Notes under the pieces: generated by a model
The model's input: only the letters and a program-made list of their open reading frames with translations
Database searches by the model: none
Told to the model about the DNA's origin: nothing
NCBI GenBank assembly: GCA_022566775.1
Contig: JADFIJ010000007.1
Span: 1-34,104, forward strand
Length of the DNA: 34,104 nucleotides
From: Pseudomonadota bacterium
Lineage (GTDB): Bacteria; Pseudomonadota; Gammaproteobacteria; Pseudomonadales; Pseudohongiellaceae
Reading direction: 5' to 3'
Program-made: the position numbers and the translations under genes
In this document: positions 18,712 to 34,104 of the stretch, in pieces
How the letters are laid out: every line of letters starts with the position of its first letter
Position numbering within the stretch: position 1 is the first letter of the stretch

Positions 18712-20772
18712 ATGAGAACAAGCTTGGTCAACCGGCTCCTGTTCGCGGCCTTGGTCTATCACTTGGGATTTAGCGCCCAACTGCTCGTCGCCCAGCAGGG
18801 TGCGCCCAACGGTGAATGGCCGAGTTACGGCGGTGACCTGGGTCACACGCGGTACTCGGCGTTGTCCCAGATCAACGCGCAGAATTTCTCGGAGTTGGAA
18901 CTGGCCTGGAGTTTCAAGACCGACAATCTCGGTCCGCGGCCGGAATACCGCTATCAGGCCACACCGCTGGTCATCGATGGTGTCATGTACACCACCGGGG
19001 GTTCCCGCCGCGCCGTAGTGGCGCTGGATGCCCGTACCGGCGAGATGCTGTGGATGTATAGTCTCGACGAGGGCGAACGTGGCGGGGCGGCACCCAGGCA
19101 ATTATCCGGCCGCGGTCTGGCATTCTGGCAGGAGGGCGAAGACAAGCGGGTATTATTTGTGACACCTGGCTACCGCCTGATAGCACTGGATGCAGGCAGC
19201 GGTCGCCCGGTGCCGGAATTCGGTGACAACGGCATCGTCGATCTGAAACAGAATGCCGATCAGCAGATCGACCTGGTGACGGGTGAGATAGGTCTGCACG
19301 CGACACCCATCGTCGCCAAGGATGTGGTGATCGTCGGCGCCGCTCATCGTACCGGCGGCAATCCCCGTAGCCGGGAAAATGTAAAGGGCTTCGTCAGGGG
19401 CTTCGACGTTCGCAGTGGTGAGCGCCTGTGGATTTTCCACACCATCCCCCTGCCGGGGGAGTATGGCTATGAATCCTGGTTAGACGGGTCCGCGGAATAC
19501 ACCGGCAACACCGGCGTGTGGGCACAAATTTCCGTAGATGAGGAATTGGAAATCGTGTATTTGCCGGTAGAGGAATCCACCGGCGATTACTATGGCGCCT
19601 ATCGGCCTGGCGATAACCTGTTTGGTGAAACCCTGCTGGCGGTAGATCTCCATAGCGGCGAGCGCAAGTGGCACTACCAACTGGTGCACCACGGGATCTG
19701 GGATCACGATATCCCCGCCGCGCCCATACTGCTGGATATCAATGTGGACGGCCGCCAGATCAAGGCCGTGGCCCAGCCGACGAAGCAGGCGTTCCTGTAT
19801 GTGTTCGACAGAGTCACCGGCGAGCCGGTGTGGCCAATCGAAGAGCGTGCCGTGGAGGCGGGAGACGTGCCGGGAGAATGGTATTCACCCACCCAGCCCT
19901 TTCCCACCAAACCGCCGGCCTATGACCGCCAGGGAGTGACCGAAGACGATTTGATCGACTTCAGCCCCGAACTGCGGCAACAGGCGCTGGAAATAGCGAG
20001 CTGGTACAAGCTGGGACCCATTTTTACGCCACCGGTGGTCAGCAATATCGACGGGCCGCTGGGCATCTTGATGGCGCCGGCAACCGGTGGGGGTACGAAT
20101 TGGCCCGGCGGCTCCTACGATCCGGAAACCAATATTCTGTACGTTTCGTCCAGTAGCTCGGTTGTGGGCCTGGCCGTGGTGCCACCCTATCCCGGCCAAT
20201 CGGATATGGCTTATATCCAAGGTAACGCCGCCACCGGCCCACGCACTTCCGGCGGTGCCGGCTCTGCGGCCGGCGGTGGCCGCACCGAATTTCAAGTCGC
20301 TGCGCGAGAACAACCGGTTTCAAGTCGCGGCAGGCCGCCGATTGGTTTGCTGGTACAGCGCCTGCCGCTATTAAAACCACCTTATGGCGTGATAGCCGCT
20401 ATCGATATGAACAGGGGCGAAATATTGTGGACGATTCCCCACGGTGAAACCCCGGACAACGTACGCAATCATCCCCTGCTGCGAAATCTCGATATTCCCA
20501 GAACCGGGCAGAGTGGTTCGGTGGGGACACTGGTGACCAGTACGCTGTTGATTGCAGGCGAACCCCAGTTCACCACGGACGGCTCGGGCGTGCGCGGCGC
20601 CTGGTTGCGTGCCTATGACAAGGCGACTGGCGTCGAGGTCGGCGCGGTGCATCTACCCGCACCGCAAACCGGCTCCCCCATGACCTATATGCTCGATGAT
20701 GAGCAGTACCTGGTGCTGGCGGTCAGCGGCAGCGGCTACTCCGGTGAACTCCGCGCTTACAAATTACCGTAA
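18712..20772 (+). CDS. PQQ-dependent dehydrogenase, membrane glucose dehydrogenase-like, exported
   Basis: A beta-propeller quinoprotein of the mGDH type that probably oxidises a sugar or alcohol in the periplasm. Residues 1-27 form a signal peptide ending near 'LLVAQQ', followed by 'EWPSYGGDLGHTRYSAL', a standard opening. Family blocks include 'SGRGLAFWQEG', 'FGDNGIVDL' and 'VHHGIWDHDIPAAPIL'. The Asp in 'WDHD' (331) is the likely catalytic residue by comparison with E. coli Gcd. 'GGTNWPGGSYDP' near residue 462 is another family block. It lacks both the five-helix membrane domain of Gcd and any CXXCH haem site, so electrons need a separate acceptor. A Gly/Ala/Ser/Arg-rich insert around residues 504-540 looks disordered. 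ATG 18712 follows AGGAAGT. It diverges from the symporter gene. Confidence 0.88.
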   Translation: MRTSLVNRLLFAALVYHLGFSAQLLVAQQGAPNGEWPSYGGDLGHTRYSALSQINAQNFSELELAWSFKTDNLGPRPEYRYQATPLVIDGVMYTTGGSRRAVVALDARTGEMLWMYSLDEGERGGAAPRQLSGRGLAFWQEGEDKRVLFVTPGYRLIALDAGSGRPVPEFGDNGIVDLKQNADQQIDLVTGEIGLHATPIVAKDVVIVGAAHRTGGNPRSRENVKGFVRGFDVRSGERLWIFHTIPLPGEYGYESWLDGSAEYTGNTGVWAQISVDEELEIVYLPVEESTGDYYGAYRPGDNLFGETLLAVDLHSGERKWHYQLVHHGIWDHDIPAAPILLDINVDGRQIKAVAQPTKQAFLYVFDRVTGEPVWPIEERAVEAGDVPGEWYSPTQPFPTKPPAYDRQGVTEDDLIDFSPELRQQALEIASWYKLGPIFTPPVVSNIDGPLGILMAPATGGGTNWPGGSYDPETNILYVSSSSSVVGLAVVPPYPGQSDMAYIQGNAATGPRTSGGAGSAAGGGRTEFQVAAREQPVSSRGRPPIGLLVQRLPLLKPPYGVIAAIDMNRGEILWTIPHGETPDNVRNHPLLRNLDIPRTGQSGSVGTLVTSTLLIAGEPQFTTDGSGVRGAWLRAYDKATGVEVGAVHLPAPQTGSPMTYMLDDEQYLVLAVSGSGYSGELRAYKLP

Positions 20773-22282: not shown

Positions 22283-23833
22283 CTAGTCGACGGGGACGAG
22301 CCGGACGATTCGACCGCCGGCGCTATGTTCCAGTAGCAAATAGATATCGCCGTCAGGACCCTGCTCGATATCACGAATGCGGCCGAGTCCTGCAATCAGG
22401 GTCTCGCGCCGGACCAGGCGATTGTTCTCGATGTCTATACGGAAAAGGCTGCGTGCCTTCAGGGATCCGACAAGAAAATCCCCCTCCCATTCGGGAAACT
22501 GTGTACTGCTGGAAATGATAAAACTGGATACGGCGGGAGAGGGTGTCAGGTCCACCACCGGCTGTTCGATATCGGCTAACTCGAAGGCGATGCCCAGCTC
22601 CTTGCCGTACTCGACCGGTGTGCCATCGTAGTCCATACCCAGAGAATACAAGGGCCAGCCATAGTTGCGCCCGGGCAGCAGACGGTTCACCTCATCGCCA
22701 CCACGGGGTCCGTGTTCGGTACCCCACAATTCACCGTTTACAAGATCGAATTCCAGTCCCTGGGGACTGCGATGGCCATAAGTATAGATGCTGCGATAGA
22801 CATCATCGCGATGGGCGAAGGGATTATCTTGCGGAATACTGCCATCATCGTTGACGCGATGAATCTTGCCCCAGGGCGTGGACAGATCCTGAATGCCGCG
22901 ATGATTGGCCTGTTGCACTTTTAAACCCACACTGAAATAGACATGGCCAGCATTATCGAAGGCGACCCGGCCACCGGCGGCCACATCGCTCGAGGCACTA
23001 TAGTGTTCGATATTCGCTTCCCAGATGGTTTCCTGCGCTATCCATTCACCTTCAACGATTTTGCCCCGTACCAGCTTGTTCATGGAAACCGGTGAACCCC
23101 GTTCTCGGCTGATGGCATTACAATCATCGCAGCGGTCACCGAAGTATAGATAGATCCAGCCGTTCTCCTCGTAGTTGGGATGCAGCACGATATCGAACAG
23201 CCAGCCCATGCCTCTCTCTATATCCAGGCGGGTATCCAGACGATAAATATCGTCATAGGCCTGGGGTGTTCCCGATATCAGCTCCGACTGCTCACCGCCG
23301 CGACTGATGATGCTGACACCTTGTGTTTTTTCGGTCAGCAGCAGGCGCCCATCGGGCAGAGGCTCGATCGAGAATGGCAGTGGATTGAGGTTGCTGACTA
23401 CCGTTTCCAGGCGGAAATTATGTAGCTCTGTCTCTATGGTGCCAGCTGGGATCGTAAGCGGCATTTCGAAATTTGAGGTCTCGTAATTAACGTCGGCGCG
23501 GGTCTCGAGGATGAACAGGGCAATGTTACGGATTTGCGCGTTGCTGAAGGTATCGCGCCAGTTGGGCATACCCGAGTCCGTATAGCCATTGCCGATACTC
23601 GCGGTAATCTCTGCCATGGAGTCACCGTGGCGCAGTTCTCCCCGCAGCGGCGTGCCCTGGGGTGCCCCTTCCAGGTTTTCACCATGACACACCGCGCAGT
23701 TCTCTTGAAACAGCGCAATGGAATCGGTGACACCGGAATAAGCCTGAGCTTGCGCGAAGGCAGCGGGCGCCACCATCAGAGTAGTTGGCAATACGATCAG
23801 CAAGATTTTTAAATACTGGCTCAGCTTTTTCAT
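22283..23833 (-). CDS. Cytochrome c / PQQ-dependent sugar dehydrogenase fusion
   Basis: Exported two-domain oxidoreductase. After a signal peptide ending near 'PAAFAQAQA' there is a class I cytochrome c domain with 'CAVCHGENLEGAP' and a probable axial Met in 'SGMPNW'. The C-terminal domain, about 400 residues, is of the soluble glucose/sorbosone dehydrogenase type (six-bladed propeller). It has 'FDIVLHPNYEENGWIYLYF' with the likely catalytic His, 'YGHRSPQGLEFD' and 'WGTEHGPRGGDEVNRL'. The fused haem would take electrons from PQQ directly. I chose ATG 23833 ('MKKLSQYL'), which has AGGAAAT upstream; the ORF-track start adds 12 residues. It lies downstream of the epoxide hydrolase and a PQQ dehydrogenase on the same strand, with gaps of 94 and 58 bases, so an operon is plausible. 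Confidence 0.88.
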   Translation of the reverse strand: MKKLSQYLKILLIVLPTTLMVAPAAFAQAQAYSGVTDSIALFQENCAVCHGENLEGAPQGTPLRGELRHGDSMAEITASIGNGYTDSGMPNWRDTFSNAQIRNIALFILETRADVNYETSNFEMPLTIPAGTIETELHNFRLETVVSNLNPLPFSIEPLPDGRLLLTEKTQGVSIISRGGEQSELISGTPQAYDDIYRLDTRLDIERGMGWLFDIVLHPNYEENGWIYLYFGDRCDDCNAISRERGSPVSMNKLVRGKIVEGEWIAQETIWEANIEHYSASSDVAAGGRVAFDNAGHVYFSVGLKVQQANHRGIQDLSTPWGKIHRVNDDGSIPQDNPFAHRDDVYRSIYTYGHRSPQGLEFDLVNGELWGTEHGPRGGDEVNRLLPGRNYGWPLYSLGMDYDGTPVEYGKELGIAFELADIEQPVVDLTPSPAVSSFIISSSTQFPEWEGDFLVGSLKARSLFRIDIENNRLVRRETLIAGLGRIRDIEQGPDGDIYLLLEHSAGGRIVRLVPVD

Positions 23834-23927
23834 TGCTATTTCCTGTTCTCGTTTTATTCTTCTAATCAATTTATAACAAATTTATCGATGTGCGATTACA
23901 GGCCTGACACTATTGCCTTCCCGACTG

Positions 23928-25128: not shown

Positions 25129-26931
25129 CTAATTCAGAGCGAACACCCAAAGTGCTGCTGCCCCGGGATTGGTATCGGTATATCCGGTAAACCTATTCAT
25201 CAGGCCGAGCCAGATTCCCGTGTGCAGGTTAAGCTGCCCGGCCACCACGGCGATGTATTGCTTACCGTCGACGCTGTAACTGATTGGAAACGAAGAGGGG
25301 ATGGCGTCGAGTTCAGTCTGCCAAAGAATCTCACCATTTCGTTGATCGAAGGCCTTGAACGAATGGTCCAGGAAGCCAAGGAATACCAGGCCTCCTGCCG
25401 TCGCCAGGGTCGCGGAAATCGGCGGTATTACCTGCCGATGTTGCCAGGCTAACTCGCGCCGTTCTAAATCGATGGCCTGGAGCCGCCCGAATTTGCCATC
25501 GCTGCCGGGAATTGGGACGGCATCCATCCACAGCCCGCTGCTGAGCAGTGTGCCCTCACCATTAAGCAGGGTATCCATGCAGACCTCAAACATCGGCACG
25601 AACAACATCTTGGACTCGCTGTTGATGGAGCTGGCCTGCCAGTTGCGACCCCCTTGATAGAGCGGACAGACCGTACGAATAATTTCGGCGTCGGGGATAA
25701 CATCGGGGTTGATCAGTTTGGTCCCGGTGACCGGGTCGATGCCGATGACGATGTTTTGTATGCCCGGATCTACGGAAAACAGGTATTGACCTGTGGCTGC
25801 ATCCAGCGCATCGAAGAGGCCGGGCTTGCCCGCAGTGACGATCACTTTTCTGGTTTCGCCATCGATATCGAGTTCGACAATCGACCGCTCGAATGCCCAG
25901 TCAAGATCGAATTGATCGTTGGCAATGTGCTGGTAATACCAGACCAGTTCGCCGGTGGCCGGTCGCAGGGCGAGAGTCGCATTGGTGTAGAGCGCGTCGT
26001 TGCTAACCCCTTCGATGCCTAGGGGATACAGCAAGGGCCCGGTATTGTAGGTAGGCGAAACGCCGAAGAAAACCAGATCCAATGCCGGGTCATAGCCACC
26101 GGTATTCCATACCGAGCCGCCCTGACGCTGTTCCAGTGGGATGTTGTTCCAGGTGTTGCCGCCCGGTTCACCAGGCCTGGCCAGGGTGTAAAAGCGCCAG
26201 GTTTCCTCGCCGGTTTCCAGATCGACGGCGATGATAAAACCACCCCCGGGTACCCGGGAGGCAGCCACGCCCTGGATTACCTGCCCCCCTGCTGTCAGTG
26301 GCGCACTGCGCAGTGCGTAACCGCTGTTATCACCCGTATCGATGGCGTGATCCCACAGGACCCTGCCGGAGCGCGCATCCAGCGCCACCATGTGCAGATC
26401 CGAGGTGGGCACCAACACCTTGTTCTCATGCAGTGATATACCAAACTTATGGCTGGTGATGGCGCCACCTTGGTGCCGATAGCGCCACAACAGCTCACCG
26501 TTGGTGGCATCCATGGCCAGCACCACATCCCCGGCGCTATAGAGAAACATGACGCCATCGTGTACCAGTGGAGTTGGCATGTTGTTGCCGGGGGTCACCG
26601 TTTGGTGCCAGGCGAGTTCCAGATCGGTAACGGTTTGTCTGTTGATCGAGTCGAGAGGTGAATAGCCCTTATTGTCATAAGTACGACGCCATATCAACCA
26701 GTCGGAGGGAGGGGGATTTTGTAAGAGTTCATCATTTACCGATGAATAATTGCGTAGTAATGGAACCTCGTCAGGGTCAGCTATCACAGATTGCAGCGAA
26801 CTGGCGTCGGTTCGACCATATTGCTCGATAATTCCTCTTGGAGGGCTGCCGTCCTGCTGGGCGATTGCCGTGTTAACGAATAGTGCTAGCAGCAGAACAA
26901 AAGCTGTAGCGATGTGTATTATCGTTCTCAT
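25129..26931 (-). CDS. PQQ-dependent alcohol dehydrogenase-like protein (no haem domain)
   Basis: Exported eight-bladed quinoprotein of the methanol/ethanol dehydrogenase group. A signal peptide ('ATAFVLLLALFVNTAIAQQ') precedes a linker and the propeller. Tryptophan-docking repeats include 'ATNGELLWRYRHQGGA' and 'ARSGRVLWDHAI'. The probable catalytic Asp is in 'DQFDLDWAFERS'; a second Asp two residues later gives the DxD spacing reported for lanthanide-dependent members. There is no CXXCH motif. It resembles the dehydrogenase at 29031-31217 in block order ('VARPGE'/'LARPGE', 'NWQAS'/'NWQSS'), so the two are distant paralogs. I chose ATG 26931 ('MRTIIHIATAF') with a GGGGTG site upstream rather than 26976. 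The substrate is unknown; alcohols are the family norm. Confidence 0.86.
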   Translation of the reverse strand: MRTIIHIATAFVLLLALFVNTAIAQQDGSPPRGIIEQYGRTDASSLQSVIADPDEVPLLRNYSSVNDELLQNPPPSDWLIWRRTYDNKGYSPLDSINRQTVTDLELAWHQTVTPGNNMPTPLVHDGVMFLYSAGDVVLAMDATNGELLWRYRHQGGAITSHKFGISLHENKVLVPTSDLHMVALDARSGRVLWDHAIDTGDNSGYALRSAPLTAGGQVIQGVAASRVPGGGFIIAVDLETGEETWRFYTLARPGEPGGNTWNNIPLEQRQGGSVWNTGGYDPALDLVFFGVSPTYNTGPLLYPLGIEGVSNDALYTNATLALRPATGELVWYYQHIANDQFDLDWAFERSIVELDIDGETRKVIVTAGKPGLFDALDAATGQYLFSVDPGIQNIVIGIDPVTGTKLINPDVIPDAEIIRTVCPLYQGGRNWQASSINSESKMLFVPMFEVCMDTLLNGEGTLLSSGLWMDAVPIPGSDGKFGRLQAIDLERRELAWQHRQVIPPISATLATAGGLVFLGFLDHSFKAFDQRNGEILWQTELDAIPSSFPISYSVDGKQYIAVVAGQLNLHTGIWLGLMNRFTGYTDTNPGAAALWVFALN

Positions 26932-27094
26932 TACAATGCACCCCGTAAGGTTCGGTTGTTTATGCCCTGGCTTCACAGGCGGTTATTCTGCTCTGAATTT
27001 TAACGCGATGTGCCCGCATTCTGCCAGTTGGTCTTGCCTTAGCATTTTGGACCACTGCGCCAGGTCATAATTTCTGCTTCGAATGGGGCTTGCC

Positions 27095-27165: not shown

Positions 27166-28326
27166 CTAACGGTACGTACTTACCGGAGGTAACTGCGCAC
27201 CCGACAGGTCGTCCGGAATGCTCATCTCGACCCTGACCGTGTGGGTCAGTGTGCCGATTCCCTCGATGCTGGCACTGATGGTCTCACCGTCGATCAGGTA
27301 TCCGGAGCCTGACGCGCGCTCGACGCGACCAGCACCGGTTCCGCCCGACGTCCCGCTCTGCATGACATCACCGGGGAAGACCGTGATCAGCGACGAGGCG
27401 TACTCGATGAGCTCAGGGATATTATGGATCATGTCACCAGCCCTGGCCTCCTGCACGGTGACGCCGTCGATAACCAGGGTCTGGTGCAGGCGCTCCATGG
27501 GATCGCCATAGAACTCTTTTGGCACGATCCAGGGACCATGCGGCGCGAACGTGTCGTGGCCCTTGCCGACGAACCAGTCCGAACCGGAGCCAAAACCGCC
27601 AGGAGGACGTCCGCCACGGTCGGAGATGTCCATCGCCACCATATAACCAAACACGTAGTCGTACGCACGGTCCGCGGAGATGTACTTACCGGTGCGGCCG
27701 AAGACGATGGCCATCTCCACTTCCCACTCGATCCGGTCACGTCCGTAGGGCATGATGATGTCCTCACCGTCGCCGATGATTGCTCCGCGGGTGGGCTTCA
27801 GGAACAGATAGGGAACGCCGCGGTTTTCCTGACGCTGGCGCAGGCGAGCTTGAAATTCATCGTCATTGCAGCCCTCGCAGGCGTGGCTGTAAAAGTTCAC
27901 GGCCGCGTTCATGAGTTTGCTTGGATACTGAATCGGGGCCATGATATCCACCGAGCCCACCGGGTGCACAAAGCTGCGCTGGCCACTGCCGCTCAGCAGA
28001 TTCTCCTCCACGAGCCAGTTCACAACCTCGTAGATCCGGAACTTCAGGCCGTACTCGTACTGCTCGATGAGCCCGAGCATATCCTCGGGCATGCTGATCT
28101 GGCTGTACTGCGGCAGCAACTGCATGGCGCGGTTCGCGGCCGCAAGCTCGACGATCAGCTGGTCATCGCGCATGACCAGGCCGACGGTCGGTATATCGTT
28201 GATCGCAAAGGTGCCGACCTTGAACGGCTCGACCGACTCCATGGCCTGGGCAGAGACGTCGACCGGGCTGGCAAAAATCACCAGCGTCGCAGCAAACGCC
28301 AGGGTTAATAGGGACTTTCTTATCAT
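27166..28326 (-). CDS. Fumarylacetoacetate hydrolase (FAH) family protein with signal peptide
   Basis: FAH-family enzymes hydrolyse, decarboxylate or isomerise C-C bonds of 2-oxo or 1,3-dicarbonyl acids from aromatic degradation, using Mg or Mn. The metal ligands are in place: Glu202 and Glu204 in 'EWEVEMAIVFG' and Asp233 in 'VAMDISDRGG'. 'AVNFYSHACEGC' matches the conserved 'NYxxHAxE' block, and 'FPGDVMQSGTSGGTGAG' the usual TGTPxGVG loop. Unusually, residues 1-27 form a Sec-type signal peptide ending near 'VSAQA', which places the protein in the periplasm; family members are normally cytoplasmic. About 90 residues precede the catalytic domain. The gene has a strong terminator of its own, and by eye a higher G+C than its neighbours. 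Substrate unknown. Confidence 0.87.
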   Translation of the reverse strand: MIRKSLLTLAFAATLVIFASPVDVSAQAMESVEPFKVGTFAINDIPTVGLVMRDDQLIVELAAANRAMQLLPQYSQISMPEDMLGLIEQYEYGLKFRIYEVVNWLVEENLLSGSGQRSFVHPVGSVDIMAPIQYPSKLMNAAVNFYSHACEGCNDDEFQARLRQRQENRGVPYLFLKPTRGAIIGDGEDIIMPYGRDRIEWEVEMAIVFGRTGKYISADRAYDYVFGYMVAMDISDRGGRPPGGFGSGSDWFVGKGHDTFAPHGPWIVPKEFYGDPMERLHQTLVIDGVTVQEARAGDMIHNIPELIEYASSLITVFPGDVMQSGTSGGTGAGRVERASGSGYLIDGETISASIEGIGTLTHTVRVEMSIPDDLSGAQLPPVSTYR

Positions 28327-28535: not shown

Positions 28536-28913
28536 ATGAAATTAACAAGAAAAATTATGCTAATCGTCCTAATCGGACTATTTTCCCAATTTTCCATGGC
28601 GGATAACGCCTCATCTGCCAAGGAAATCGCCGATATTGTTGCGTCTTTGAATCATTTCCCGTCTGACGCGGACAAGGAAGCGTTGATGGCTATCTCCTCA
28701 GACGATAGCCTTGGCGAAGGCGTACGGGCTATGGCTACGGCGATTGCTACTTTTGCCCATTCTGCAAATGACGAAGGCAAAGCAGCGATGGCCATGATCC
28801 AGGCTAATGATGAGGCCCCTGACCGCACCAAGGAATTGGCCGGAATAATTGCCGGTATCACCCACACGGCTAGTGCGGATGCGAAAGCCACGCTGGCAGA
28901 ATTGTTCCCGTAG
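28536..28913 (+). CDS. Small exported protein of three 35-residue repeats
   Basis: A 125-residue protein of unknown family. A signal peptide ('IMLIVLIGLFSQFSMADN') is followed by three repeats with an exact 35-residue period, starting near residues 29, 64 and 99. Equivalent positions line up: His40/75/110, Ala32/67/102, Ala36/71/106, Lys47/82/117, Leu50/Met85/Leu120 and Ile53/Ile88/Leu123. Each repeat reads like a short helix, a His-containing turn and a second helix, so a small all-helical solenoid is likely. There are no cysteines in the mature part. The start is certain, with AAAAGGAGAA before ATG 28536. A terminator follows the stop, so it is a one-gene transcript. The conserved His could bind metal or haem; this is a guess. 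Confidence 0.8.
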   Translation: MKLTRKIMLIVLIGLFSQFSMADNASSAKEIADIVASLNHFPSDADKEALMAISSDDSLGEGVRAMATAIATFAHSANDEGKAAMAMIQANDEAPDRTKELAGIIAGITHTASADAKATLAELFP

Positions 28914-29030: not shown

Positions 29031-31217
29031 CTAATCTGGCAGCTTGAACACATACAGTGCGTTATGCCCGTCCGGGCTGCTCAGCTCCGGCGCCAGGAAA
29101 CTGCCGATGCGCCACGGGCTGCCGCCCTCGCGGCCGGCAGCAATGGCGATGTACTGTTCGCCATCGATGGCGTATGACACCGGAAACCCCTGCACCGATG
29201 TAGCGAGTCTGGTGCGCCACAGTTCCTCACCGTTGCTGACGTCGTAGGCGTGGACGTAACGGTCGTAGTCGCCTATGAACAGCAGGCCGCCGGCCGTACT
29301 CAAGGCGGCGGTCAGGAAAGGCGCGCGCTGCTCCACACTCCAGGTCTCATCCATGGTGGCCACGTTGTAGGCACCCAGTTTGCCGAACTGCTCATCGGTG
29401 CCGGGCATGGGCATCCATCTGCGATCCCCCTGAGTGCCGCCGGAGCCGATTTCAAATGTAGTTTGCCGGGGTGACATCTCCATGCAGGACTGGCTCAGCG
29501 GGATGATCAGTTGCTGGGTGGGGGGGTGATAGGTACTGGACTGCCAGTTATGGCCACCGGCGGTGGAGGGGCATACCGAGAGCCATTCTCCTATTTTCAT
29601 GTTGCGAATGTCTTCCCGATACCGTACCTGACCGGTTTCCAAGTTAAGCTCCGAAAACACATTTTGATAAACCGTCTGTTTTAAGCCCCGGAACTCTCCG
29701 CTGCGACGATCCAGCTTCCAGAGGATGCCGCTCTTGCCGATCGTCAGCAGGAAGGGTTCATCGAATATATCCACCAGCACCTGTTCGAATGCCTCGTCCA
29801 TGTCCAGGGATTCGCCGGGCACATGCTGTCGATACCACACCAGGCGGCCATCATCCGGATTCAGTGCCAGGGTGGAATTGGAATACAGGGCGGCGTCTTC
29901 GGTGGTGAGGCCGCGGCTCGCCGCCATCCAGGGCTTGGCCTGGGCGGTACCGAAAAACACAAGATTCAGATCCGGATCCCAGCTGCCGCTTATCCAGACA
30001 TCGACGCCGCCGCGGAATTCCAACGGTAGTCCACCCCAGCTATCGCCCCCGGCTTCCCCGGGCCGGGCGACGGTATAGGTACGCCAGAGTTCTTCACCGC
30101 TGCGGGCGTCGTGGCCGGTGATGAAACAGCTCTCTTCATAGAAACGGCCACACCCGGTGATGCCATTGATGACCTTGCCATTGGCTACGATGGGGCCGCT
30201 GGTGTTGGAGTAGCCCAGGCTGCTGTCGGCGATTTCAACATCCCAGCGTACGGCACCGGTACGGGCGTCCAGCGCCACCAGGTGCGCGTCGGTGGTGGCG
30301 ACATAGATCATGTCCTCCCACATCGCCAGCGTACGCAGATGCCCGCCCTGGCGACCCCCTTCCGGAAACTGCCGGCGGTATTCCCATAATAAGGTGCCAT
30401 CTCGCCCATTTAAGGCTTGCACGACGTTGCCAAAATTGGGAATGAAAATAAACCCATCTCTCACCAGTGGCGCCGGTTGGCTGCGGCCGGGTTCCATGCC
30501 CCAGACCCAGGCCAGGCTCAGGTTCTTAACATTGTCGGTATTGATTTGCGTGAGCGGCGTAAAACCGTGGCTCTGTGGAGTGCGGCGCCAATAGGTCCAG
30601 TCGGCGGCGGCTGGGTCGATCAGCTCAGCCGTGGTGACATTGCGAAAACCCGGCAGCGCTTGCAGGGAGCGGGTCAGTGCGCGTTCAGACCGGTAGATGG
30701 TGGCAAACTCCGGCACGCTGCTGCGAGCAGAGGGAGTGGGCATGGTGCCGGCTCTGCCGGGAACCGGTAGTCGCGGGGCTTGTCGCTGCACCGCGTTGGC
30801 CTGATCGCCAATGAAGGCGACCGCGTCAGATGAGAAGCTCAGCGCCTGGGAGCCAGGGGCGATATCGTTGGCGCTGAGCAGGTGCGCTACCAGGGCCGCG
30901 TAGTCTGCATCTGCCAGGCTCGCCGGCGCCTGTGGCGGCATCGTGCGTCGGATTAGATCCAACAGCTCGCTGACACTTCGATTCGACCAGTTGCTGGTGA
31001 AGTTGCTGCCGGCAAGCGCCGGTGCTTCGAATGAACCCTGCAGATCCAAGAGATGACAGACGGCGCAATTCTGCTGATAGAGGGTGGCGCCGGTGCCGGC
31101 CTGGGCCTGGGTAAAGCTGGCTTGCTCGAGCTCCTGCGCCAGCGAGGTGGCAGCACAGGAGGCTGCAAACAACAGCGACACGCTCAGAAGCCGTTTGCGG
31201 ACGCTTGGATTATTCAT
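29031..31217 (-). CDS. Cytochrome c / PQQ-dependent alcohol dehydrogenase fusion
   Basis: An exported quinohaemoprotein. A signal peptide is followed by an N-terminal cytochrome c domain with Cys51, Cys54 and His55 ('[14 protein letters not shown]') and a likely axial Met in 'RRTMPPQAP'. After a Pro/Ser-rich linker comes the eight-bladed PQQ domain with '[16 protein letters not shown]', '[14 protein letters not shown]' and '[18 protein letters not shown]'. The probable catalytic Asp is in '[11 protein letters not shown]', with Asp at +2 as reported for lanthanide-dependent relatives. The haem sits at the N-terminus, whereas well-known quinohaemoprotein alcohol dehydrogenases carry it at the C-terminus. 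It is the last gene of a three-gene minus-strand operon (71-base gap to the copper protein). Confidence 0.9.
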
Positions 31218-31288: not shown

Positions 31289-32632
31289 TTAATTCAGCGA
31301 CAGGGTTTCCTGATATGCCCGCCTCTCGGCTATGGCCTGCACATACTGCTCTTCATCGATGTAGGTGATGCCGACCCAGGCATGACTCATCTCATCGACA
31401 CCCCGGCGGCCAAACACCACCCACTGGTTGGGGTCCGGGTTAATCGGATTGTTCGCCGTATTATCGAACACGGTGGTGAATTGCAGCACCGTGCCCCTCG
31501 GCAATATGGGTTTTACTTCGTCGGCATAAATGTAGGCGATCTGCCAGGTGTGGTTGTATTTATTCACCTGGCTCAGCACTTCCCTGCGACCGTCAGGATA
31601 AATGGCGGTCATGGTCATCACCTTGCCGCGCATGTGCATGTGGGGACGAAAACTGTGAAGCACCGCCGCCGACTGCAACACGTGGGTGCCCTGTAATACC
31701 TGATAGCCATGGGGAGGGATGATGATGTCCTGTCCCCTGGCCATGCCATTGAGGCCGTCTACCCTGAACATGGATTCGCCATTGGTAACGAGTTCCGGCT
31801 GCTGACCTTCGGGATAAAACCAGAGGCCGACCTCGACCACATCGTCTTCACCCCCGATACCCACCGGAAAATAGTGCAGGTTCCAGGCGATGTTGCCACC
31901 GGCCGGCACCAGCATGCCGGTGCCCTGAGGGTATATTTCCCAGGACTTGCCGACGCCATATCTGGCCAGTGCCACGGCGCGGCCGCCATCGGCGGGCTGC
32001 AGTACCGCATGGCCGTGGTGCACGACCTTCTTGCCCAGGGGAAAGGAGGGCTTAAATTCCGCCGCGCGCAGCCAGCGATCTGATTCGAGGCCTTCAAATG
32101 GCACATCCGGTGTCCACCACTGATCCTGACCATTGGCGATCACATCATAGGGTCTGGACTTGATAATCAGGTCAGGCGGGCCTAATTCCTCGGCGAGGTG
32201 CCAGGCACCGCCGGCGAGCAACTGGATCGGTGCGGGCAGGTCTGCCGGGTCGCCCTCGGGCGCTCCCCCGTCCGCCCAGGCGGCGAGCGTGGCTATCTGT
32301 TGTTCCGACAGCGAGGCATCGTTCTTGAACTGTTGAATACCGGTGGTGGGATCGTTATGCCAGGGCGGCATCATGCGCTTGCCGGTTCTGTCTTTTATCA
32401 GCGCAGCGAAGGGCATTACCTGCTGGTAGGTCTGCAGTGGCATCGGGCCGATACCGTCCGGATTGTGGCAGCTCACGCACTTCTGCTGCAGGATCGGAGC
32501 CACATCCCTGGCGTAGACAGGCGCGAATGCGCTACCGTCCTGGGCCAGCATACCACCGGTGAAACCCGTCAGCACCAGGAAGACGGCTAATTGTAAAATA
32601 CTACCTCGATGTGTTTGCCTGTAACTGTTCAT
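31289..32632 (-). CDS. Cytochrome c / PHM-like type II copper monooxygenase fusion
   Basis: An exported two-part redox protein. After a signal peptide, residues 45-120 form a cytochrome c-like domain with 'CVSCHNPDGIGPM' (Cys52, Cys55, His56) and a Met candidate in 'RMMPPWH'. The C-terminal part resembles copper type II ascorbate-dependent monooxygenases (PHM/DBM). By analogy the CuH ligands are His205-His206 ('VVHHGHAVL') and His253 ('WNLHYFPVG'). The CuM ligands are His331, His333 ('RPHMHMRGK') and Met415 ('DEMSHAW'). The 'DNTANNPINPDP' block is typical of this bacterial group. PHM-type enzymes hydroxylate C-H bonds using O2 and two electrons; the fused haem may deliver them. Start ATG 32632 follows AGGAG. 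Second gene of the operon 33558-29031. Confidence 0.85.
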   Translation of the reverse strand: MNSYRQTHRGSILQLAVFLVLTGFTGGMLAQDGSAFAPVYARDVAPILQQKCVSCHNPDGIGPMPLQTYQQVMPFAALIKDRTGKRMMPPWHNDPTTGIQQFKNDASLSEQQIATLAAWADGGAPEGDPADLPAPIQLLAGGAWHLAEELGPPDLIIKSRPYDVIANGQDQWWTPDVPFEGLESDRWLRAAEFKPSFPLGKKVVHHGHAVLQPADGGRAVALARYGVGKSWEIYPQGTGMLVPAGGNIAWNLHYFPVGIGGEDDVVEVGLWFYPEGQQPELVTNGESMFRVDGLNGMARGQDIIIPPHGYQVLQGTHVLQSAAVLHSFRPHMHMRGKVMTMTAIYPDGRREVLSQVNKYNHTWQIAYIYADEVKPILPRGTVLQFTTVFDNTANNPINPDPNQWVVFGRRGVDEMSHAWVGITYIDEEQYVQAIAERRAYQETLSLN

Positions 32633-32697: not shown

Positions 32698-33558
32698 TTA
32701 ATTACTGATATCGACCGTAAAATAGGCATTGGTATGGCAACAGTAAAATTCAAACGCCGCGATACTGTCAATGGTCTGCATGCGCACAATATAGCGCCCC
32801 GGGGCTGCGAACGTCGCCTCAACTTCGGTGGGTCCTGCAGCGGGTCTCATCATATACTCCAATTCGTCGAATTCGACAACACCCGGTCCAGAATGCTTGG
32901 CCCATCCCACCCATATTTCCTCGTCGGGGTGTTCGATCCAGGCGCTTAAGTTTACCGCTTCCCCCACCCGTCCGCTAATAGCAGCTTCGGAAAATAACCC
33001 CTTGCGACCACGCACGCCGACACCATCGGCGGATAGTTTCACCAGCGGTGCCACGTCACCGCGACCGCCGGAAGCCGGCTCGTCTAATACATAAGCCGGC
33101 AGAATGTGTCCGGGGATGCTCAGAGATTGGCTGGCGCTGCTCAGATTCCACACCACGGTTTCATCGATGCCGAAACTGGCAGGCACGGTGACGGTAAAAA
33201 CACAGAATTTGTGCCGGTAGCGCGGTGGCAGTGGATCGAAATGGGTGGGCAGAATGGCGTCAAGACTGGCGTCGCTTAGATGGTTATCGGTCCCCAATGG
33301 AATGGTCAGTGATTGTTCGGAATTGAGATTGAAGAAGCTGAAACAGAGACTCTTGCTGCCATCTGCATTGGCAAACCAGCCGTCGAACAAGGGAATCACT
33401 GGCTGGCCGCTGGGTCTTATGACATCGGCAGACCAGATCTGATTGGACAATTGAATCTGTTGTGCCACTGTACCCGCAATAGGCGAGAGCAACAGCGCCA
33501 GCAACAACGCCTGTAACAACAGGCAGCGCTTGCTTGACAGGTTCTTGCTCATCATCAT
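32698..33558 (-). CDS. Exported protein of unknown function, first gene of the haem-copper operon
   Basis: A protein of about 286 residues with a signal peptide ('LLLQALLLALLLSPIAGTVAQQ'). The mature part is rich in beta strands. An N-terminal domain contains 'PVIPLFDGWFANADGSKSLC' and 'LPPRYRHKFCVFTVTVP'. The C-terminal half looks Ig- or PKD-like, with 'PGRYIVRMQTIDSIAAFEFY' and a final 'CCHTNAYFTVDIS'. I cannot name a family. It could be a partner, metallochaperone or substrate-binding subunit for the two enzymes encoded 65 and 136 bases further on. I chose ATG 33558; two further ATGs at 33555 and 33552 are equally possible, and the ORF-track start at 33603 adds 15 residues. Confidence 0.75.
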   Translation of the reverse strand: MMMSKNLSSKRCLLLQALLLALLLSPIAGTVAQQIQLSNQIWSADVIRPSGQPVIPLFDGWFANADGSKSLCFSFFNLNSEQSLTIPLGTDNHLSDASLDAILPTHFDPLPPRYRHKFCVFTVTVPASFGIDETVVWNLSSASQSLSIPGHILPAYVLDEPASGGRGDVAPLVKLSADGVGVRGRKGLFSEAAISGRVGEAVNLSAWIEHPDEEIWVGWAKHSGPGVVEFDELEYMMRPAAGPTEVEATFAAPGRYIVRMQTIDSIAAFEFYCCHTNAYFTVDISN

Positions 33559-34104
33559 GGCGAGGACTCTATAGATGCTGTAGTGCCCGCCGATAGTACT
33601 CAATCCCTGAGCCGTTGTCTCCTGCGGGCACCAATCCTGGGCCTTGCAACCCAGACTCTGGTCAGCTCGCTGGCTGTGCGGGAAGACGACTGATGTGTGG
33701 CTCCAGGCACGTGTTGCAGATCGCCTGCAGGGCGAATCCCAACTAGCGCGACTTCGGGTCGCACGCGCTCTAACACGCGATAATCGGGCTTTCTACCGTA
33801 CTTTAAGAGTAAATGCATCATTTGTTTGTAAGAGCGCGCTTTAGCGCTTTACGCTTATTGTGGTAGAATTCTCGAGGTGGCTTCTCTGGTTTTTGGCACT
33901 AAGGTGCTGAAATCTAAGAGAAGACGCTCGAATGTCCCTGTTCATAGTAGATATTATGCAAGAATCTACGGAATTATAGCATTACGTAATGGTAATATGT
34001 GTCATTAGAAATTAATTCATAAAGGTTTATATACTCGTTGATTGAGTATTTATTATTCATTTATCAAATCGCGTAAATGAAGTATAGATGAACAGCGGTT
34101 TTGC
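33559..34104. other. Non-coding right end: operon leader, tandem 8-mer and long hairpin
   Basis: No supported gene in these 546 bases. The first part should hold the promoter of the minus-strand operon. At 33836-33851 GCGCTTTA is repeated twice in tandem, followed by a partial copy CGCTTA. At 33881-33923 a long imperfect hairpin (CTTCTCT...TTTTTGGCAC, loop TAAG, GTGCTGAAATC...AGAGAAG) has about 18 pairs including G-U. From 33950 on the DNA is very AT-rich, as in a promoter region or an older intergenic stretch. The window ends before any further gene starts. Confidence 0.45.

Follow-up and report, generated by a model that had tools for sequence, protein, structure and literature searches.

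The chemistry of PHM and DBM is known mainly from the synthesis of amidated animal hormones and of the neurotransmitter noradrenaline, with ascorbate as the electron donor. In PHM, the CuM ligands are H242, H244 and M314, positions that were checked by residue counting, and R240, N316 and Y318 are the residues for the carboxylate of the peptide substrate. The CuH ligands are H107, H108 and H172 in the naming of PMC6123673, which also reports a closed conformation among PHM mutant structures. In DBH (PDB 4ZEL), chains A and B represent closed and open states, and an N-terminal DOMON domain plus a dimerisation domain (PMC4846438) stand where the protein described here has a haem c domain. The fusion of cytochrome c with such an enzyme may already be present as an architecture in domain databases; among open-licence papers, we found no study of a cytochrome c-PHM fusion and no characterised member.

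How does the locus studied here compare with these enzymes? The window, which is the whole stretch of DNA analysed (34,104 nucleotides), is an entire contig (C228) of a 3.4-Mb, 86%-complete genome. It holds a complete open reading frame with limits of exactly 31289..32632 on the minus strand, the product of which, P0001, resembles PHM (PDB 1OPM, 1PHM and 6ALA) in its two-domain fold, in six ligands that lie in register and in the positions of Q272 and R240. P0001 is unlike PHM in its bacterial origin, its fused cytochrome c, the absence of disulphides, the His and Trp that replace N316 and Y318, and the conserved gene set to which it belongs. Its features are as follows, with conservation among 116 homologues.

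31289..32632, minus strand: P0001, putative cytochrome c-PHM/DBM-type dicopper monooxygenase fusion, 447 aa, ATG start
32540..32632, minus strand: N-terminal Sec-type signal-like hydrophobic segment, about residues 1-31, recognised by eye
32465..32479, minus strand: CVSCH haem c attachment motif, residues 52-56, kept in 98-100%
32369..32371, minus strand: Met88 in MMPPW, likely axial haem ligand, 115/116
32015..32020, minus strand: H205-H206, assigned as CuH ligands (PHM H107, H108; aligned to PHM via L126), 116/116
31874..31876, minus strand: H253, assigned as CuH ligand (PHM H172), 116/116
31634..31642, minus strand: H331-M-H333, the histidines assigned as CuM ligands (PHM H242, H244), 115/116
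31388..31390, minus strand: M415 in DEM, assigned as CuM ligand (PHM M314), 115/116

From its sequence, P0001 is predicted to be a secreted, periplasmic protein. The Pfam cytochrome c family (Cytochrom_C, PF00034) matches it at 23.6 bits, above the cut-off of 21.3, in agreement with the preliminary description, which had placed a CXXCH domain in front of the copper enzyme. The C-terminal copper family (Cu2_monoox_C, PF03712) scores 18.1 bits (E=0.002), below its cut-off of 23; it is matched by 36 of 53 diverse family members (best 4e-5), and two paralogues of P0001 in its own genome exceed the cut-off for PF03712/PF01082. No NCBIfam model matched P0001. That description had also claimed a complete PHM/DBM-type core with six ligands in the order HH, H, HxH, M, and the homologues bear this out: down to approximately 30% identity, each ligand is kept in 99-100% of the 116 sequences and is absent at most once. 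All six are retained in 22 of the 24 near-complete copies in the own genome, most of which are only 30-55% identical.

Structure prediction and comparison with PHM, which had been proposed as a check, agreed at the level of the fold. An AF2 model of P0001 (pLDDT 91.2; input, an alignment of 53 sequences) was used in a Foldseek search of the PDB, in which ranks 1-31 were all DBH or PHM structures. DBH 4ZEL was the best single match (E 3.9e-12), the TM score against PHM reached 0.65 on PHM length, and the hits beyond rank 31 were unrelated folds (next-best E ~1e-5, TM <0.2). This match provides independent support for a PHM/DBM-type core in P0001. The model scored higher on the chains of 6ALA (TMt 0.64-0.65) than on open PHM (0.52-0.60), and higher on closed chain A of DBH (TMq 0.51) than on open chain B (0.47), a difference that may reflect a modelling preference.

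Direct PDB searches with the P0001 sequence and with its profile did not retrieve PHM or DBH. The two are bridged by L126, a cytochrome c-PHM fusion from another proteobacterium that lies above the PF01082 cut-off and belongs to a type of bacterial cytochrome c-Cu2_monooxygen fusion with the same architecture and ligands as P0001. L126, with its HAH and DEMC motifs, is closer to PHM in sequence than P0001 is. Its alignment with rat PHM (E=2.8e-7) brings VHH, QVHY, HxH and DEMC into register; that with P0001 is full-length (9e-29, or 1.9e-38 by profile; 25% identity). A search with PF01082 found one positive genome among 150 of the phylum. P0001 is thus homologous to PHM, on the basis of this transitive alignment together with the modelled fold, and we regard it as an apparently uncharacterised variant within the PHM/DBM class. 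By the resulting alignment, PHM H107/H108/H172 correspond to H205/H206/H253 and H242/H244/M314 to H331/H333/M415; Q272 corresponds to Q364 (kept in 104/116 homologues) and R240 to R329 (97/116). N316 and Y318 are replaced by H417 and W419, so that the peptide-carboxylate residue set is not fully kept. With His and Trp at these two positions, a peptide is an improbable substrate, even though R240 is retained.

The genes around P0001 revealed a second regularity that had not been described for this DNA before. The relevant loci in the window are:

32698..33558, minus strand: P0003, secreted-looking protein with two Ig-like/PKD-like beta domains, start placed at an MMM cluster (open reading frame from TTG at 33603)
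29031..31217, minus strand: P0002, cytochrome c plus quinoprotein alcohol-dehydrogenase-type propeller, with Asn453 at the canonical catalytic-Asp column
18712-20772, 25129-26976 and 29031-31217: PQQ-type propeller loci, the last being P0002

P0003 lies directly upstream of the P0001 homologue in 47 of 48 gammaproteobacterial loci and in 24 of 28 other loci, the two sets being divided by locus number and the second consisting mostly of Gemmatimonadota or Acidobacteriota, with a small number of MAGs that bear the label Gammaproteobacteria but have copies similar to those of Gemmatimonadota. The gammaproteobacterial set maintains the arrangement P0003-P0001-P0002, all on one strand. Ten copies in the own genome adjoin a P0003 relative, on the upstream or the downstream side depending on the copy; this variation points to functional linkage rather than mere inherited gene order. 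P0003 is a more constant partner than the quinoprotein P0002 and is kept across several phyla. It has no Pfam family of its own; a PKD match was found in 30 of 53 relatives, and its model resembles two Ig-like domains, with which a fold search returned only generic Ig-like matches of low TM that indicated no function. When a constant fourth gene was sought in the flanks, none appeared beyond the triplet and the quinoproteins (the largest cluster was merged and mixed). Elsewhere in the window we noted a small secreted-looking open reading frame of 125 aa (28536-28913) with no Pfam or NCBIfam match, and an FAA-hydrolase-family protein (27166-28326) with an apparent signal peptide, in a family that is normally cytoplasmic.

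P0002 is directly downstream of the P0001 homologue in 45 of 47 gammaproteobacterial loci but in only 5 of 23 others. Over its propeller it matches the PQQ-dependent alcohol dehydrogenase 4CVB (E=7e-103), and it differs from 4CVB in its N-terminal cytochrome c (CXXCH in 42/42 orthologues) and in an Asn at the canonical Asp. At the column that we take, by its motif, to be that of the catalytic Asp, Asp occurs in 34 of 43 aligned sequences and Asn in the other nine; 4CVB itself carries Lys there, so the Asn of P0002 alone does not exclude activity. A further fusion, of cytochrome c with a glucose/sorbosone-dehydrogenase-type domain, is encoded at 22283-23869 in the neighbourhood of P0001. The own genome contains approximately 50 PQQ-type propeller loci (80 matched stretches). 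The gene pqqC passed its cut-off in 9 of 31 genomes from the genus, and in 4 of the 17 good ones, and a high-scoring pqqE occurred in 8 of 31; pqqC was detected neither in the own genome (86% complete) nor in a single-contig genome (G187) that carries a P0001 orthologue. This leaves two options: the cells scavenge PQQ, or many of the propellers function in its absence. With pqqC absent from the majority of genomes in the genus, P0002 is at most a candidate PQQ electron source. The 'partner PQQ enzyme' of the preliminary description thus holds as an adjacent cytochrome c-quinoprotein in the gammaproteobacterial loci, and is weakened by the other loci, the Asn and the scarcity of pqqC.

The family to which P0001 belongs is present in many copies. 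Its own genome has approximately 25 (29 matched stretches, about 27 by open reading frame, several at contig ends); a sample of 24 genomes from the genus gave 10 to 27 matches each and five near-complete genomes of the host family 13 to 35, these per-genome counts being upper bounds, as long hits may be split. The profile matched 98 of 119 genomes of the host family (75 of 92 good ones) and 3 of 399 (~1%) in a sample of the phylum that included the own genome. Orthologues with 70-98% identity occur in gammaproteobacterial MAGs, among them several with the label Pseudohongiella, OM182 or Pseudomonadales; OM182 has been placed in Pseudohongiellaceae (PMC8371827). More distantly, the protein family is widely diverged over several bacterial phyla. 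In the tree, the own paralogue L027:5061-6287 is sister to L122:6073-7305, labelled Gemmatimonadetes, with support of 100/100, which suggests transfer between phyla, with the reservation that MAG labels can be wrong. A plasmid search gave no match.

The copies are not uniform. Some are in tandem (e.g., three on contig C68), and two of about 600 aa (L123 and L018) have a thioredoxin/AhpC-like domain N-terminal to the cytochrome c and PHM core. In L020:3086-4777, both CuM histidines are replaced (PRMGYRG) and the CuH ligands, the Met and the haem motif are kept; to judge from these residues it is possibly a non-catalytic copy, and monooxygenase activity thus cannot be assumed for all copies. Another copy ends abnormally near a contig end, and with these two cases we rejected the idea that every copy is active. 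By analogy with oxidoreductase expansions in SAR202, the diverged copies within a genome probably act on different substrates.

What might P0001 do? We consider it probable that P0001 is a secreted, O2-dependent copper monooxygenase of the PHM/DBM fold, fed with electrons by its haem and acting on a small organic substrate. Periplasmic cytochromes, or the adjacent P0002, would reduce the haem of the fused single-haem cytochrome c domain, which would replace ascorbate as the one-electron feeder. The fusion of the two domains suggests that the haem in turn reduces copper held at CuH (H205, H206 and H253) and CuM (H331, H333 and M415). O2 would then bind at CuM, and a C-H bond of the substrate would be hydroxylated. 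P0003 could serve as a dedicated partner in assembly, docking or substrate presentation. We infer electron entry through the haem from the CXXCH motif and Met88, which vary no more than the copper ligands do, and the earlier proposal of haem instead of ascorbate is in this sense well founded, as a proposal.

Could the likeness to PHM be accidental, or the chemistry that of the animal enzymes? It is extremely improbable that the His/Met pattern arose by chance in an unrelated C-terminal beta protein: the subthreshold PF03712 score and the failure to retrieve PHM from the PDB by sequence would fit such a coincidence, but the fold search, the alignment through L126 and the invariance of the ligands speak against it, and their retention in 22 of 24 diverged copies effectively excludes a chance pattern. 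We also think it very unlikely that P0001 is a genuine hydroxylase of the peptidylglycine or dopamine type, driven by ascorbate, in which the haem domain is incidental. Such an enzyme would share the fold, the ligands and the conserved Arg329 (R240), but it is difficult to reconcile with H417 and W419, with haem ligands conserved as strongly as those of copper, with a protein family widely diverged over several bacterial phyla, or with the composition of P0001, which has no cysteine besides those of CXXCH and therefore lacks PHM's disulphides. Less remote, and still unlikely, is that the same dicopper fold performs other chemistry, as an oxidase, an H2O2-using peroxygenase or a copper/redox sensor, and not O2-driven carbon hydroxylation. 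The loss of N316 and Y318, the paralogue that retains the fold without CuM histidines, and the fact that we found no assayed family member would all agree with this; in nearly all copies, nonetheless, the two copper sites are kept, along with the CuM Met and the equivalent of Q272, as hydroxylation of the PHM type needs.

The haem-fed monooxygenase that we favour may also take a more specific form, a product-recycling unit in which P0001 hydroxylates, P0002 oxidises the resulting alcohol and the electrons return via the two cytochrome domains. This is possible but doubtful. The adjacency of the two genes on the same strand in the gammaproteobacterial loci, the cytochrome c in both products and the co-expansion of quinoproteins in the own genome are consistent with it, whereas the rarity of a downstream quinoprotein in the other loci, the few genomes with pqqC or pqqE and the Asn at the catalytic column of P0002 argue against it. 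More speculatively, and with slightly less expectation of being right, P0003, the haem-fed P0001 and P0002 might form one periplasmic module that recovers, by oxidising its product, the electrons spent on hydroxylation; dozens of substrate-specific copies of it would then be one of the main ways in which a single marine family deals with organic matter.

The preliminary description is therefore partly supported overall; it contained neither the P0003 partner nor the paralogue expansion. New in this study are the expansion and distribution of the family, the linkage to P0003 and, in gammaproteobacterial loci, to a cytochrome c-quinoprotein gene, and the scarcity of pqqC in the genus. Oxygenase-rich relatives have been noted (PMC8371827), and two papers on SAR202 propose that expanded oxidative enzyme families serve the use of resistant organic matter (PMC5395668, PMC6946804). 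A haem-wired bacterial branch would give uncoupled dicopper enzymes a new electron route, and would offer a bacterial system in which to study how electrons enter at CuH and CuM. These proteins, of which near-complete genomes from a single marine family show 13 to 35 matches each, would be candidate enzymes for marine organic carbon, and their copy number and constant partner gene point to a large unstudied bacterial toolkit for organic-matter oxidation.
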